Shown in pieces: positions 1 through 5,176 of a stretch of DNA of 5,176 nt. Numbering within the stretch: position 1 is the stretch's first letter; each line of letters opens with the position of its first letter. The translations under genes and the position numbers were made by a program. This DNA comes from Actinomycetota bacterium. Its GTDB lineage: Bacteria; Actinomycetota; Acidimicrobiia; Spongiisociales; ZC4RG35. The notes beneath the pieces are model-generated. The model did no database searches. It was not told the origin of the DNA and worked only from the letters and a program-made list of their open reading frames with translations. The stretch is from the NCBI GenBank assembly GCA_019347585.1, contig JAHWLC010000094.1, positions 1 to 5,176 on the forward strand. Reading direction: 5' to 3'.

Positions 1-1350
1 GGCGCGCCCGACTGCGACCACCGCGTCTTCCGCCTCGGCGTCCCTGTGCTCGGCATCTGCTACGGACACCAGATCATGGCCAAGGTCCTCGGAGGCGACG
101 TCGGCCACACGGAGGTGGCCGAGTACGGGAAGGCGACGGCGCGCATCCTCGAGCGCGACTCGACCTTGTTCGAAGGGATCCCCGAGAGCGGGACGGTGTG
201 GATGTCCCATCGGGACGCGGTTGTGAAGCCGCCGCCGGGGTTCCGCGTGACGGCGGCCACCGATACGAGCCCGGTCGCGGCCATGGAGGATCCTGACGAC
301 GGGTTCTACGGGGTCCAGTTCCATCCCGAGGTGATCCACACCGACCGCGGCGCCGAGATGATGCGGAACTTCCTTCACCGCGCGTGCGAGATCCTGCCCA
401 CCTGGACGCCCCACTCGATCATCGAGGAGGCCATTGGGGCGGTGCGTGCTCAGGTCGGCGACTCGAAGGTCGTCTGCGCCCTGTCTGGAGGTGTCGATTC
501 GTCGGTGGCGGCGCTCCTGGTCCACCAGGCCGTCGGCGACCAGCTCACCTGCATCTTCGTCGACCACGGGCTGCTCAGGGAGGGGGAGGCGGAGCAGGTC
601 GAGGAGACCTTCCGCTCCCATTTCGAGGTCGACCTGGTCCATGTCAAGGCGGCGGACCGCTTCCTCGAGCAGCTCGAGGGAGTGACCGACCCCGAGGAGA
701 AGCGAAAGATGATCGGGGAGACCTTCATCCGCGTCTTCGAGGAGGCGGCCTCCTCCGTCGGCGATGCCGCCTTCTTGGTGCAGGGGACTCTCTATCCCGA
801 CGTCATCGAGTCGGGCTCGGGGACCGCAGCCATCATCAAGACCCATCACAACGTGGGCGGGCTGCCCGCAGACATGAGACTCGAGCTGATCGAGCCGCTC
901 CGCGACCTGTTCAAGGACGAGGTGCGCTCAGTCGGCGAGGAGCTGGGCCTTCCGGAGGAGATCGTTTGGCGTCAGCCCTTCCCCGGCCCTGGGCTGGCGG
1001 TCCGCATCATCGGCGAGGTCAACAGGGAGAGGCTGGAGATCCTCAAAGCGGCGGACCAGATCATCGACGAGGAGATCAGGCGAGCCGGTCTCTACCGGCA
1101 GGTGTGGCAGGCCTTCGGGGTCCTCCCCGCGGTGAGAACAGTCGGCGTGCAGGGCGACGGGCGCACCTACGCCTACCCACTGGTGGTGAGGGCGGTCACC
1201 TCGGAGGACGCCATGACCGCCGATTGGGCGAGATTGCCCTACGAGGTCCTGGAGCGAATCTCATCCCGGGTGATCAACCAGGTGCCGGGGATCAACCGGG
1301 TGGCCTACGACATATCGTCGAAGCCACCGGCCACGATCGAGTGGGAGTGA
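1..1350 (+). CDS. guaA: GMP synthase (glutamine-hydrolysing), 5'-truncated by the window edge
   Basis: This cytosolic enzyme makes GMP from XMP, ATP and glutamine, the last step of de novo guanine nucleotide synthesis. The frame is open from base 1, so the ATG at 46 is internal. The visible part is 449 residues against about 510-525 for the family, so roughly 60-70 N-terminal residues lie outside. The class I amidotransferase domain shows the nucleophile motif GICYGHQ (Cys at 58-60) and the His/Glu pair in FHPEV (His 322-324, Glu 328-330). The ATP pyrophosphatase P-loop is SGGVDSS (484-504). The C-terminal GMP synthase dimerisation domain contains [11 protein letters not shown] (from 973), and the protein ends in the family's usual IEWE. 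No motif is broken and the frame is intact. The stop is TGA, and no clear terminator hairpin follows in the 76-bp gap. Function is assigned with high certainty from these motifs. Confidence 0.98.
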
Positions 1351-1371: not shown

Positions 1372-1399
1372 TTCAGACACTCCCCCGTGGTGCCGATAA
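1372..1399 (+). promoter_or_regulatory. Candidate sigma28 (FliA/WhiG)-type promoter of the CheA-like gene
   Basis: TTCAG at 1372-1376 is followed after 16 bp by CCGATAA at 1393-1399. The full octamer GCCGATAA (1392-1399) is identical to the sigma28-class -10 consensus. The TCAG half sits 15 bp before the octamer, where the consensus -35 core TAAA is expected, but matches it only partly. Transcription would begin near 1405-1407, giving a leader of about 20 nt that still includes the Shine-Dalgarno. The same arrangement recurs before the next kinase gene. Promoter identity is inferred from motif match and recurrence. Confidence 0.6.
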
Positions 1400-1411
1400 G
1401 ACGGCTACCCC

Positions 1412-1417
1412 AGGGGA
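1412..1417 (+). promoter_or_regulatory. Ribosome binding site that fixes a TTG start
   Basis: AGGGGA lies 9 nt before the TTG at 1427, a normal spacing. An in-frame TAA at 1397-1399 excludes any earlier start, and no ATG or GTG occurs in frame between that stop and 1427. The TTG also places the first Hpt helix (SPELTEIFRQELEE) at the very N-terminus, as expected for this family. Confidence 0.7.
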
Positions 1418-1426
1418 AATCCCAAA

Positions 1427-3427
1427 TTGGACCCACACAGCCCTGAGCTGACCGAAATCTTCAGACAGGAGCTCGAGGAGCGTTCGCGCCGCCTCGTGGA
1501 GGGCGCACGCGCCCTTTCCGAGGGTGCGATCGATCCGGCATCGGTGGGAGATCTGGTTCGCGATGCCCACACCATCAAGGGCTCGGCCGGGATGCTCGAG
1601 TACCCGGCGATCGCCGCCGCCGCGGCCCGTCTGGAGAAGCTTTGGAGACGGGTGTCGGAGGGGGAGATGCCCGAGCCCGAGGTGGTGGTGGCGATGGAGG
1701 CCACCGCGGGGCGGCTCCTCTCCAGCATGGAGCGGGAGGATCCCGAGCTGGCCGACCTCGTGGAGCGCCTCGACAACGGTCTCGCCGCCGAGGTCGGAAG
1801 CGAGGTCGTGCCGCTGAAAGAGCCCGAGAGCGGGAGCCTCGGCGGTCTGCTCACCTCGGTCTCCGAGACCCTCCTCGGCGGGGCGACCCGCGTCGACACC
1901 TGCGACCTCTACCGCCTCATCAACCGCATCGTGGAGGTCGCACTCGATGCCGAGGCCCTGGCCGACCTCTCCCTGGTCTCGGTGGAGGGCCTCGATCCCG
2001 AGCTGTTCCGCAGGTCGTGGCGGGCGCAACTCGAGCGGCTCAGCGAGTCGATCAACGACATCCAGGCCCAGGCGGTGTCCCTGGCCAACGTCTCCTTCTT
2101 CGACGCGATGGCCACCCTGCCCCAGTTCGTGCGGTACCTGGGACGCCGGCTGGGCAAGGATGTCCGCCTCGAGCTGGAGGGAGAGGACGTCCAGCTCGAC
2201 CGTCAGATCATCGACCTCATCCGCGACCCGCTGCGCCATCTCCTGGTCAATGCGGTCGACCATGGGATCGAGACCTCCGAGGAGCGGGTGAGGGCGGGGA
2301 AGCCGGGGACGGGCCGGATCACCGTCCGGGCGAACCAGGTCGCCGACCGGGTCGAGATCGGCGTCGTCGACGACGGGCGGGGGATCGACTGGGACCAGGT
2401 GGCCCGGGTGGCAGGGGAGCGGGGATTCGACCCGGTGCCCCGGGACCTGGTCCCTCTCCTTCTCCATCCCGGCTTCACCACGGTCGACTCGGCCAACGAC
2501 TTCTCGGGGAGCGGCGAGGGGCTGTCCATGGCGGCGGAGGCGGTGAACCGGGTCAACGGGACGGTTCGCATCGAGTCTGAGCCGGGGTCGGGCACCAGGA
2601 TCACCCTCACCCTGCCGCTGTCGATGGTCCTGCAGAACGTGGTGGTGGTCGCGGTGGGGGACCGCTTCTTCGGCCTCCCCGAGGCCGCGGTCGAGGCGGC
2701 GATGCCGCTGTCCAAGGCCGAGCTGGCGAGCACCGAGCAGGGGAGCGAGCTCCGGTTCAGGAGTCACGCCATGCCCTGCGTCTCCCTGTCCCTCGCCGTC
2801 GGTGTCTCTCCCCCACCCGACGAGTCGGAGCTGCTGGTGGTGAGCACCCGCTCCGGCATGGTCGCGGTGACGGTGAGCGAGCTGGTCGACCGGCGCCGGG
2901 TGGCGGTGAAGAACCTGGGGCCGATCCTGGAGGGCTCGGGTCATATCACCGGCGCCGCCCTGCTCGGGGGGAGCCAGGTGCTGGTGGTCCTCGACCCCGA
3001 CTTCCTGGGTGTGGTCGCCCATCAGCGGCCCCGGCTCCTCGAGGACCGTCCCCGAGTGCTGGTGGTCGACGACTCGGCCGGGGTGCGCCAGCTCCTCTCC
3101 GCCACTCTCAACGGGGCCGGGTTCGACGTCGAGGTGGCCAGCGGGGCGCGGGACGCCATCCTCGCCATAGCCGCCGACGACTTCGACGTGCTCGTCGTCG
3201 ACTACTCCATGCCCCGCTCGAACGGGGTCGAGCTGGTGCGGGCCATGCGAGCCGCAGACGTCACCGTCCCCATCGTGATGGTCTCCGGTGTGGCCACACC
3301 CGAGGAGAAGGCGGCGGCGTGGGAGGCCGGGGTCGACGCCTATCTCGACAAGTACGACCTCCGCCACGGCGTTCTCACCAAGACCCTGAGACAGCTCATG
3401 GGCACGGAGAACGCCGACAGCGCCTGA
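1427..3427 (+). CDS. CheA-type hybrid histidine kinase with C-terminal receiver domain (Hpt-dimer-HATPase-CheW-REC)
   Basis: This 666-residue cytoplasmic protein has no membrane segment or signal peptide. An Hpt (P1) domain occupies about residues 1-115, with phospho-acceptor His48 in AHTIKGSAG. A linker of about 40 residues follows, with no recognisable P2 (CheY-binding) domain. The dimerisation and HATPase regions (about 152-400) show the CheA N box HLLVNAVDHGIE (Asn275), G1 box DDGRGI (315-320), LLLHPGFTT (345-352) and G2 box GSGEG (361-365). A CheW-like P5 domain spans about 400-530. A receiver domain (about 541-660) has Asp548/Asp549, phospho-acceptor Asp592, Ser620 and Lys642, so all key residues are present. 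The architecture matches hybrid CheA proteins such as FrzE or ChpA/PixL kinases rather than plain chemotaxis CheA. No CheW, CheR, CheB, CheY or receptor gene is visible nearby. It starts at TTG, and a candidate sigma28-type promoter lies upstream. The target is unknown; control of motility, pili or development is inference. Confidence 0.93.
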   Translation: MDPHSPELTEIFRQELEERSRRLVEGARALSEGAIDPASVGDLVRDAHTIKGSAGMLEYPAIAAAAARLEKLWRRVSEGEMPEPEVVVAMEATAGRLLSSMEREDPELADLVERLDNGLAAEVGSEVVPLKEPESGSLGGLLTSVSETLLGGATRVDTCDLYRLINRIVEVALDAEALADLSLVSVEGLDPELFRRSWRAQLERLSESINDIQAQAVSLANVSFFDAMATLPQFVRYLGRRLGKDVRLELEGEDVQLDRQIIDLIRDPLRHLLVNAVDHGIETSEERVRAGKPGTGRITVRANQVADRVEIGVVDDGRGIDWDQVARVAGERGFDPVPRDLVPLLLHPGFTTVDSANDFSGSGEGLSMAAEAVNRVNGTVRIESEPGSGTRITLTLPLSMVLQNVVVVAVGDRFFGLPEAAVEAAMPLSKAELASTEQGSELRFRSHAMPCVSLSLAVGVSPPPDESELLVVSTRSGMVAVTVSELVDRRRVAVKNLGPILEGSGHITGAALLGGSQVLVVLDPDFLGVVAHQRPRLLEDRPRVLVVDDSAGVRQLLSATLNGAGFDVEVASGARDAILAIAADDFDVLVVDYSMPRSNGVELVRAMRAADVTVPIVMVSGVATPEEKAAAWEAGVDAYLDKYDLRHGVLTKTLRQLMGTENADSA

Positions 3428-3437
3428 TCGGTCCCGG

Positions 3438-3465
3438 TTCAGTGCGGATAGCGGCGCACCGATAA
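3438..3465 (+). promoter_or_regulatory. Candidate sigma28 (FliA/WhiG)-type promoter of the second kinase gene
   Basis: TTCAG at 3438-3442 and CCGATAA at 3459-3465 are separated by 16 bp, the same as at 1372-1399. The octamer here is ACCGATAA, one base from the sigma28 -10 consensus. The spacer is otherwise unlike the first copy, so this is not a simple duplication. Only 10 bp separate the motif from the ATG, so transcription should start at or within a few bases of the start codon. An alternative reading is a housekeeping -10, GATAAT (3461-3466), which matches TATAAT at five of six bases but has only a weak -35. Confidence 0.55.
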
Positions 3466-3475
3466 TCGAGGGGAG

Positions 3476-4375
3476 ATGGCGGATCTGAGCATCCCCGAGG
3501 TCCTGCTCTATCTCTCGCCGGCCGTTGGCGTCATCGGGCTCATCTGGGCATGGCGCATCACAGCTCACGGCCGGGAGAGGGAGCGTGAGGTGCTGCGCCT
3601 CTCCGAGGAGGCCCACACCATCAAGAACGACTTCGTCACGCTGGTCAGCCATGAGCTGAGGACCCCACTCACCTCGATCGCCGGCTTCGCCGACACCCTG
3701 GAGCAGTCCTGGGAGGACCTCCCGCCCGAGGAGGTGTCGGAGTTCCTCTCCATCATCAACCGCCAGGCCATGTACCTCGGAGACCTGGTCGAGGATGTCC
3801 TCGTCATCCCCCGTCTCGAGGCAAACCGTCTCCGTCTCGACCCCGAGCTCTTCGACTTCGGGGGCCTATTCGAGGACGTCGCCCAGATGGTGTTTCCCAC
3901 CGGGGGCCGCAAGTCGTCCCTGGTGTCCCTGCCCGACGGGGTGAGGGTGTTCGCCGACCGGCGGCGGGTCCAGCAGATCGTGCGCAACCTCATGGAGAAC
4001 GCCCGCAAGTACGGGGGCGACCAGATCCTGGTCGAAGGTCAGGTCCTCGGGGACCAGTACCTCGTGATCATCTCCGACAACGGCCCCGGGGTGCCCGACG
4101 AGGAGACGCAGCGGGTCTTCCAGAACTTCGAGCAGGTCTCCAAGGGAGATGCCAGGGAGTCGAGCGGGATCGGGCTCGGGCTGCCCATCGCCCGCCGGCT
4201 CGCCAGGCTGATGGGCGGGGACGTCTGGTACGAGAGGCGCTTCCCCACCGGGGCCCGATTCTGCTACTCGCTGCCGCTGCGGCGCCGTGACGCGGCCGAG
4301 AGGGATGTGCCTGCGACGCTCGGGCCGGGCGAGACTGCCGTGGTCGAGGTGCCCGACACCGTCGAAGTCGGTTGA
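3476..4375 (+). CDS. Membrane-anchored sensor histidine kinase (HisKA-HATPase), no visible sensor domain
   Basis: This is a 299-residue kinase. One hydrophobic helix (about residues 8-28) should anchor it in the membrane, and it is followed at once by a charged, coiled-coil-like stretch (31-48). The HisKA domain contains SHELRTPLTSI with phospho-acceptor His59. The HATPase domain has N box NLMEN (171-175, in NLMENARKYG), G1 box DNGPG (201-205), F box VFQNFEQ (214-220) and G2 box GIGLGL (231-236), so the catalytic core looks complete. A tail of about 30 residues after the core is rich in Pro, Glu and Val and has no recognised motif. There is no PAS, HAMP or extracellular loop, so any input must come through the helix, a partner protein or the cytoplasmic side. 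No response regulator gene is adjacent. The start is the only possible ATG, because an in-frame TAG lies at 3449. AGGGG ends 2 nt before the ATG, too close for a good ribosome site and compatible with a leaderless or near-leaderless message. Confidence 0.93.
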   Translation: MADLSIPEVLLYLSPAVGVIGLIWAWRITAHGREREREVLRLSEEAHTIKNDFVTLVSHELRTPLTSIAGFADTLEQSWEDLPPEEVSEFLSIINRQAMYLGDLVEDVLVIPRLEANRLRLDPELFDFGGLFEDVAQMVFPTGGRKSSLVSLPDGVRVFADRRRVQQIVRNLMENARKYGGDQILVEGQVLGDQYLVIISDNGPGVPDEETQRVFQNFEQVSKGDARESSGIGLGLPIARRLARLMGGDVWYERRFPTGARFCYSLPLRRRDAAERDVPATLGPGETAVVEVPDTVEVG

Positions 4376-4381
4376 ACACGG

Positions 4382-4434
4382 CCTTTCTGTGTCGATTTCC
4401 CGGGGCTATAGCCCGGTAAATCGACACAGAACGG
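4382..4434 (+). repeat. Long imperfect palindrome (stem-loop); possible terminator or dispersed palindromic repeat
   Basis: Arms TTCTGTGTCGATTT (4385-4398) and AAATCGACACAGAA (4418-4431) are perfect 14-bp reverse complements. The core GGGCTATAGCCC (4403-4414) is a perfect palindrome. Between them CC (4400-4401) pairs with GG (4415-4416), leaving a bulged G4402 and a C4399/T4417 mismatch. Outside the arms two more C-G pairs form beyond one mismatch. The element begins 7 bp after the stop of the upstream kinase gene. No T-run follows on either strand, so it is not a classical intrinsic terminator. The structure is directly visible; its function is not. Confidence 0.85.
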
Positions 4435-4477: not shown

Positions 4478-5176
4478 ATGCAGGCCGACTGGTTGTTCGA
4501 CGATGTCCCGGCCGAGTCGCCCCTCTTCGCCGATCTCAATCCCACTCAGAGGGAGGCGGTAGCGGCCACCGAGGGGCCGGTCCTGGTGGTGGCGGGAGCC
4601 GGCTCCGGCAAGACCCGCGTCCTCACCTATCGCATCGCCCATCTCATCCGCGACCTGGGCGTCTCGCCAGAGGCGATCCTCGCCATCACCTTCACCAACA
4701 AGGCCGCCGACGAGATGAGGGGCCGGGTGGGCGCCCTGGTCGGGGGGATGGTCCGCTCCATGTGGGTGAGCACTTTCCACTCCGCATGTGTGCGCATGCT
4801 GCGCCGGGAGGCGCCCCGCCTCGGGTACCGGTCCGGTTTCTCGATATATGACGACGCCGACTCGATGCGTCTCATCAAGATGGTGACCAAGGACCTCGAC
4901 CTCGATCCCAAGCGGTTCCCGGAGCGGGCGATGAAGGCGGTCATCTCCAAGGCCAAGAACGAGCTGGTCGACTACGAGTCGTTCGCCGAACAGGGTGAGG
5001 GGTTCTTCCACGAGCAGGTGGCCGACATCTACCGGCTCTACCAGCAGAGACTGGTGGAAGCCTCGGCGATGGACTTCGACGATCTGCTGATGGTCACCGT
5101 CGAGCTGTTCGCCGCTTTCCCCACCGTCCTCGGCGAGTACCAGGATCGGTTCCGCTATGTCCTCGTCGACGAGTAC
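4478..5176 (+). CDS. pcrA: UvrD/PcrA-family superfamily 1 DNA helicase, 3'-truncated by the window edge
   Basis: This is the N-terminal 233 residues of an ATP-dependent 3'-to-5' DNA helicase family acting in nucleotide excision repair, mismatch repair and removal of proteins from DNA. Full-length members are usually about 700-800 residues, so roughly two thirds is missing. Visible motifs, in order, are the Q motif LNPTQREAV (Gln24), Walker A GAGSGKT (40-46), motif Ia AITFTNKAADEM (69-80), motif Ib STFHS (98-102), MDFDDLL (198-204) and the start of motif II, VLVDEY (228-233), where the window ends. The ATG at 4478 sits about 20 residues before the Q motif, a normal N-terminal length. It has its own gap after the palindrome and a candidate leaderless promoter, so it is probably transcribed apart from the kinase genes. 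PcrA is preferred over UvrD by analogy with Gram-positive naming; RecB- or Rep-like relatives are less likely. Confidence 0.95.
   Translation, partial: MQADWLFDDVPAESPLFADLNPTQREAVAATEGPVLVVAGAGSGKTRVLTYRIAHLIRDLGVSPEAILAITFTNKAADEMRGRVGALVGGMVRSMWVSTFHSACVRMLRREAPRLGYRSGFSIYDDADSMRLIKMVTKDLDLDPKRFPERAMKAVISKAKNELVDYESFAEQGEGFFHEQVADIYRLYQQRLVEASAMDFDDLLMVTVELFAAFPTVLGEYQDRFRYVLVDEY

Follow-up and report, generated by a model that had tools for sequence, protein, structure and literature searches.

Two neighbouring kinase genes, each preceded by the same promoter-like element, raise the question of whether they belong to one regulon and, if so, which sigma factor would read it and what the regulon would serve. 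The genes lie in the stretch of 5,176 nucleotides analysed here (hereafter the window), which is contig C259 of a MAG (G000) of 1.40 Mb in 265 contigs that is 75.6% complete. The closest relative with a name that was found is the Acidimicrobiia MAG IP29b_bin.142, with 71% identity in the first kinase. All features of the window are on the forward strand. It opens with guaA (1..1350; GMP synthase, Pfam GMP_synt_C and GATase), which is cut at its 5' end and is an upstream neighbour outside the proposed regulon. Then come promoter-like site 1 (1372..1399), TTCAG-N15-GCCGATAA, and the gene of a CheA-like hybrid kinase of 666 amino acids with a TTG start (1427..3427), assigned by Pfam domains, residues and matches to CheA in the PDB. 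Promoter-like site 2 (3438..3465), TTCAG-N15-ACCGATAA, precedes the gene of a histidine kinase of 299 amino acids (3476..4375; HisKA-HATPase_c by Pfam) with a hydrophobic stretch at its N-terminus, as read by eye. Both sites are defined by exact match and by conservation. The downstream neighbour, likewise outside the proposed regulon, is a UvrD/PcrA-type helicase gene cut at its 3' end (4478..5176; Pfam UvrD-helicase). The interval between the second kinase gene and the helicase gene holds a long near-perfect inverted repeat at 4385-4431 (TTCTGTGTCGATTT...AAATCGACACAGAA); it is not conserved in genome G112, since the called frames there are only ~25 nt apart.

Two sites with the layout of a sigma28-class promoter

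A sequence-only reading of the window had proposed that TTCAG-N16-CCGATAA occurs in front of both kinase genes, and its observation as a whole is confirmed. The motif is present exactly at 1372-1399 and 3438-3465, with position and strand as claimed, an identical spacing of 16 bases and different spacer sequences. When the window was shuffled 200 times with dinucleotides preserved, no shuffle contained two copies, and the only exact matches to TCAG-N16-CCGATAA in the 1.40 Mb MAG are the two described here. With one mismatch allowed, the MAG contains 18 matches against 8 for a reversed control pattern, and such loose matches are therefore largely background. Site 1 starts 21 nt past the guaA stop codon and ends 27 nt short of the TTG at 1427, and site 2 starts 10 nt past the stop codon of the CheA-like gene and ends 10 nt short of the ATG at 3476. 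Because this ATG follows the -10 element by 10 nt, a near-leaderless transcript is predicted for the second kinase.

Sigma28/WhiG-class promoters have a spacing of about 15 bases between the -35 core and GCCGATAA, and the corresponding gap is 15 bases in both copies of the window. The assignment of the 3' half to the -10 consensus of this class also held: GCCGATAA, the consensus used for Rubrobacter WhiG in the available text of PMC8325347, is exact in the first copy and appears with one change, as ACCGATAA, in the second. The further claim that TCAG takes the position of TAAA stood with respect to spacing, and in sequence the -35 departs from TAAA. Among relatives the -35 reads TTCAG, CTCAA, TACAG or, rarely, TAAA, with GCCGATA as the -10 in most of their sites, and we regard the -35 as a lineage variant (TTCAG, CTCAA). 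Under the search rule given in the same available text (PMC8325347), at most two mismatches in TAAA and GCCGATAA together, site 1 with two mismatches falls within the limit and site 2 with three is one over.

Conservation ahead of the two kinase genes

The CheA-like kinase is present in 25 of the 34 genomes of the family (E <= 1e-60). In order to avoid circularity, the kinase loci were scored with a matrix derived from promoters found elsewhere, those of the gene for the small Cys-rich protein described below (29 of 30 loci, L218 being left out by the text pattern and L230 entering in the wrong register). Six of the 25 cheA loci had too little upstream DNA and were dropped. All 19 readable loci, the window being counted among them, scored at least 8 (11 of 380 shuffles), and 13 of them scored at least 14 (0 of 380 shuffles). 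The strong sites read TTCAG-N15-GCCGATA or nearly so. The six weaker ones (8.3-11.8) are mostly CTCAA(G)-N16-CCCGATA; one has a spacing of 17 and L071 offers a loose match only. At the second kinase, three of 25 loci were dropped and 22 were readable. A score of at least 14 was reached at 10 of these 22, the window included (3 of 440 shuffles), and the sites that were read lie 9-11 nt ahead of the start codon. No strong site was found at the other 12 readable loci. At several of them the second kinase gene lies directly behind the first, and kinase genes that adjoin in this way probably share one transcript. Given 19 of 19 loci for the first gene and 10 of 22 for the second, site 1 looks ancient and site 2 confined to a subset of genera.

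The earlier preference for shared selection over duplication is borne out, insofar as the spacers are unrelated and conservation in relatives lifts the motif well above chance. As an origin of the sites, chance and duplication were rejected on the basis of the shuffles and the conservation. The 12 second-kinase loci that have no strong site could nevertheless be taken to mean that site 1 alone works and that the second copy is accidental or a local duplicate. Against this stand the unrelated spacers and the strong sites at the remaining loci, the window among them, all of those read lying just before the start codon, and we consider this reading hardly credible. A different objection is that function does not follow from conservation alone and that TTCAG is more conserved than a typical -35, so that the sites might bind a repressor or an activator, or act in RNA, instead of being promoter core elements. 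The layout of two blocks separated by a gap of mostly 15-16 bases, with a free spacer and a sigma28 -10, and the location on the coding strand, with a start codon usually 9-50 nt downstream, make this very unlikely in our judgement.

A candidate sigma factor and its co-occurrence with the putative target genes

A sigma factor of the FliA/WhiG class, sought as the reader of the sites, was found over the TIGR02479 cut-off in 24 of the 34 family genomes and in 107 of the 138 genomes of the order. The copy in G112 reaches 268 bits with this model (cut-off 189.6). Among 78 NCBIfam models, its best match is the WhiG equivalog NF004935 at 330.1 bits, under the cut-off of 343 for this one copy, and for that reason we name the factor WhiG-type. 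In the PDB its closest match is 6pfj (E 7e-82), an entry named 'RNA polymerase sigma factor', which we take to be the Streptomyces WhiG-RsiG complex. In G121, as read by eye, whiG adjoins a xer gene and rpsB/tsf. The same search with TIGR02479 did not find such a factor in the MAG that holds the window, which is 76% complete. The proposal that the two kinases belong to one alternative-sigma regulon has its core supported by comparison with relatives; the WhiG of this genome would be encoded in the missing quarter. A text search of 206 loci for a frame with the twin-motif RsiG gave none, a result of little weight, and a twin-motif RsiG is reported in three of four Acidimicrobiales in the available text of PMC8325347.

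The presence of the sigma factor tracks that of the genes behind the element. Within the family, cheA and whiG are both present in 23 genomes and both absent from 8, with 3 mismatches among 34 (Fisher 2e-5), namely G000 and G127, which are incomplete, and G132. For cheA and pilT the corresponding figures are 25, 8 and 1 of 34 (Fisher 5e-7), the pilT count being made up of 23 matches that exceed the curated cut-off and 3 fragments that fall short of it. Across the order, the small Cys-rich protein and whiG occur together in 92 genomes and are jointly absent from 24, with 22 mismatches among 138 (Fisher 6e-11). None of the seven genomes that have the small protein but no sigma is more than 82% complete, and 15 of the 107 WhiG genomes have the sigma and no small protein. 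In one genus, six genomes that are nearly complete (G106-G111) are without WhiG over the cut-off, cheA orthologue, pilT and small protein alike. These p values are nominal, since the genomes are related. For the order UBA5794, the available text of PMC12008989 describes free-living members with type IVa and Tad pili, and sponge members with type IVa genes absent and fewer sigma factors; that UBA5794 is the order studied here is our guess.

The sites could also be promoters of one regulon that depends on a different alternative sigma, such as some other group-3 factor, instead of WhiG. The -35 is unlike TAAA, and the genomes of the family are rich in further genes of the sigma-70 family. However, the -10 with its fixed spacing is the WhiG/FliA consensus, and the presence of WhiG follows that of the target genes, and we therefore regard another sigma as unlikely. 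In our preferred reading WhiG would be the sigma that recognizes the sites.

Counts of the motif across whole genomes should be interpreted with caution. The exact motif gave 118 hits in 289 Mb of WhiG-positive genomes (35 for the reversed control) and 13 hits in 59 Mb of 19 WhiG-lacking genomes, a set made up of genus g3 and family f5 in which 18 genomes are at least 93% complete and one is 84% complete. Among the 34 family genomes, TCAR-N15-GCCGATA had 101 hits against 40 for its reversed control; in six WhiG-lacking g3 genomes there were 5 against 6, that is, background. As matches in the WhiG-lacking genomes reach about half the density, many of the genome-wide matches are background. We rejected such counting as proof, the density of the exact motif differing only 1.8-fold between the two sets (p 0.017) and the reversed pattern being a control unmatched in composition.

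A probable link to pili rather than flagella

Since a -10 of this type is the flagellar consensus and FlhA was found in 25 of the 138 genomes of the order, the element could mark a flagellar regulon in which the kinases take part in flagellar chemotaxis. Several observations oppose this. WhiG occurs in the absence of FlhA in 83 of the 107 sigma-bearing genomes. In three flagellate members of the family a second, divergent FliA-like sigma is encoded near flhA on the same contig (G117:C90, G125:C127 and G126:C200; L323-L325), with 35-37% identity to the G112 sigma in the two copies compared. A flagellar excess of the motif was looked for and rejected: ten flhA/second-sigma regions, 147 kb in all, gave 12 matches, and control regions of 330 kb gave 25. 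Finally, the MCP signalling domain (PF00015) was found in 0 of 34 family genomes in a search that matched 7 of 14 control genomes. We accordingly give the flagellar reading practically no credence.

The absence of MCPs from all 34 genomes also makes it unlikely that the CheA-like kinase is a standard chemoreceptor kinase in this family. Its Hpt, HATPase_c, CheW and receiver domains all exceed the Pfam cut-offs, and the expected residues are in place (AHTIKGS at 47-53 in Hpt; VVDDS and VVDY in the receiver). Its input is probably unusual.

What the element does precede is a gene for a predicted pilus-retraction ATPase, PilT. Of 26 pilT loci, three had short upstream DNA and were dropped; the element, at a score of at least 8, precedes 20 of the remaining 23. 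Other genes reached this score in 21 of 327 cases, among which are the second kinase itself and a coding-looking repeated stretch before whiG. The spacing in the cheA and pilT sites is mostly 15-16, and 14 or 17 in a few of them. In 11 regions read by eye, pilT stands alone amid housekeeping genes. The matches to TIGR01420 showed no conspicuous PilB-like ATPase, the others examined looking TadA-like by eye, and the Tad-pilus regions and clusters scanned had no consistent site. Since the same element precedes pilT and the first kinase gene, the kinases would be tied to pilus-based surface life, not to flagella. Of the suggested connection with motility, type IV pili or differentiation, the pilus part has stood, by way of pilT, and the flagellar part has not.

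Other genes behind the element

The gene most widely conserved behind the element encodes a small Cys-rich protein of ~98 amino acids with two CxxC pairs and the start MTTIKTTC..CGD, for which neither Pfam nor NCBIfam returned a match. It is found in 99 of the 138 genomes of the order. In the best-scoring 30 of these 99 genomes the element is present at 30 of 30 loci, 28-38 nt upstream of the start, its spacing being 15-16 in 29 and 14 in L230, and it extends across families f1, f2, f3, f7 and f8, with f6 in addition. The window's own genome carries the gene with its element on contig C22 (L281:4797-5084, minus strand).

A lipoprotein-like surface protein of ~440 amino acids follows the element on contig C102 of the own genome and in G112, G119, G133 and probably G136; two copies tested matched the NCBIfam Hvo_1808 family below its cut-off. 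Single or few cases concern DUF4388, Flp pilin, TadE, HEAT-repeat and SLH proteins and two further kinases, any of which may be due to chance. HEAT-repeat proteins with a hydrophobic start were seen behind TCAA-N15-GCCGATA in L185, L186 and L163 (by Pfam for L185 and L163, and for L186 by its likeness to L185). In other families of the order, the element precedes a GGDEF-EAL gene in G002, with a like-starting gene, its site unscanned, in G004, and GAF-GGDEF genes in G074 and G075, genes of a kind that also figures among the WhiG targets of Rubrobacter. Elsewhere in the order it precedes M23 peptidase genes (G084, G098) and an alpha/beta hydrolase gene (G003), genes with a similar start being present in G005 and G006. 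These order-wide additions come from 40 chosen hits, 18 of which lie outside a called reading frame, the gene calling being crude. Several hits, among them those in G016, G019 and G020 and a repeated stretch upstream of whiG, were rejected as promoters and left uncounted, as they lie in coding-looking frames. No gene for a c-di-GMP enzyme was among the four sites seen in the own genome. The sequence-only reading had suggested flagellar, pilus, PilZ or GGDEF genes as targets; Flp pilin, TadE, DUF4388 and GGDEF/EAL genes did turn up, in single or few genomes, but the flagellar regions had no excess.

A proposed regulon and how it might work

Taken together, we consider it probable that the two sites are promoters of one WhiG-type regulon, comprising both kinases, PilT and, elsewhere in the genomes, surface and signalling proteins. 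A single WhiG-type sigma is the likely common switch for the kinases, pilT and the small protein. Release of WhiG, probably brought about by a fall in c-di-GMP via a putative RsiG-like anti-sigma, would lead to the simultaneous production of both kinases and PilT, the second kinase from its near-leaderless transcript. The CheA-like kinase could receive its input through the CheW domain or another adaptor, with no MCP as partner, and phosphate would pass through its Hpt and receiver domains to pilus control. By this route the kinases would act on pili.

A wider hypothesis extends this to a branch of the Acidimicrobiia, in which a WhiG-type sigma whose -35 preference has shifted (TTCAG) would direct a scattered, non-flagellar regulon of surface life. 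Its core would consist of the MCP-less CheA-like kinase, PilT and the small Cys-rich protein, flagellate members would have kept a separate FliA-like sigma, and control of pili and c-di-GMP, not of flagella or sporulation, would be the original role of WhiG among actinobacteria. We see this as finely balanced, and it could fall either way.

Comparison with known systems

CheA hybrid kinases of the Pil-Chp and Frz type unite Hpt, ATPase, CheW and receiver domains in a single polypeptide and are linked to type IV pili. The CheA-like kinase described here has the same four domains in one chain. It differs in the lack of an MCP in 34 of 34 family genomes, and its link to pili consists of a shared promoter and co-occurrence, with no operon. 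The FliA (sigma28) flagellar regulon has the -10 and the spacing in common with our sites, whereas the targets seen here are non-flagellar and FlhA is missing from most sigma-bearing genomes of the order (83 of 107). With the WhiG-RsiG sporulation switch of Streptomyces the sigma family is shared, but no sporulation regulators were among the targets seen here.

The closest likeness is to the WhiG regulon of Rubrobacter radiotolerans, a non-spore-forming actinobacterium in which, according to the available text of PMC8325347, a WhiG-type sigma with a GCCGATAA -10 acts at dispersed promoters before genes for type IV pili and c-di-GMP enzymes. The -35 is TTCAG or CTCAA here and TAAA there (PMC8325347, available text). 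The conserved targets here are an orphan pilT, the CheA-like kinase, whether or not accompanied by the second kinase, and the small Cys-rich protein; in a term search, CheA, histidine kinase and TCAG were absent from the main text of PMC8325347. We found no report of the present regulon in the open-licence literature, and the Rubrobacter study was the only later mapping of WhiG that we found there, so that the window would represent a second, distant lineage. It brings a concrete gene list, a variant promoter and a small protein as the target with the widest conservation seen, and proposes an MCP-less CheA as an output of the regulon. Our best reading is that of a WhiG-type, non-flagellar regulon that links two kinases to pilus behaviour, as a variant of the WhiG-pilus regulon of Rubrobacter.
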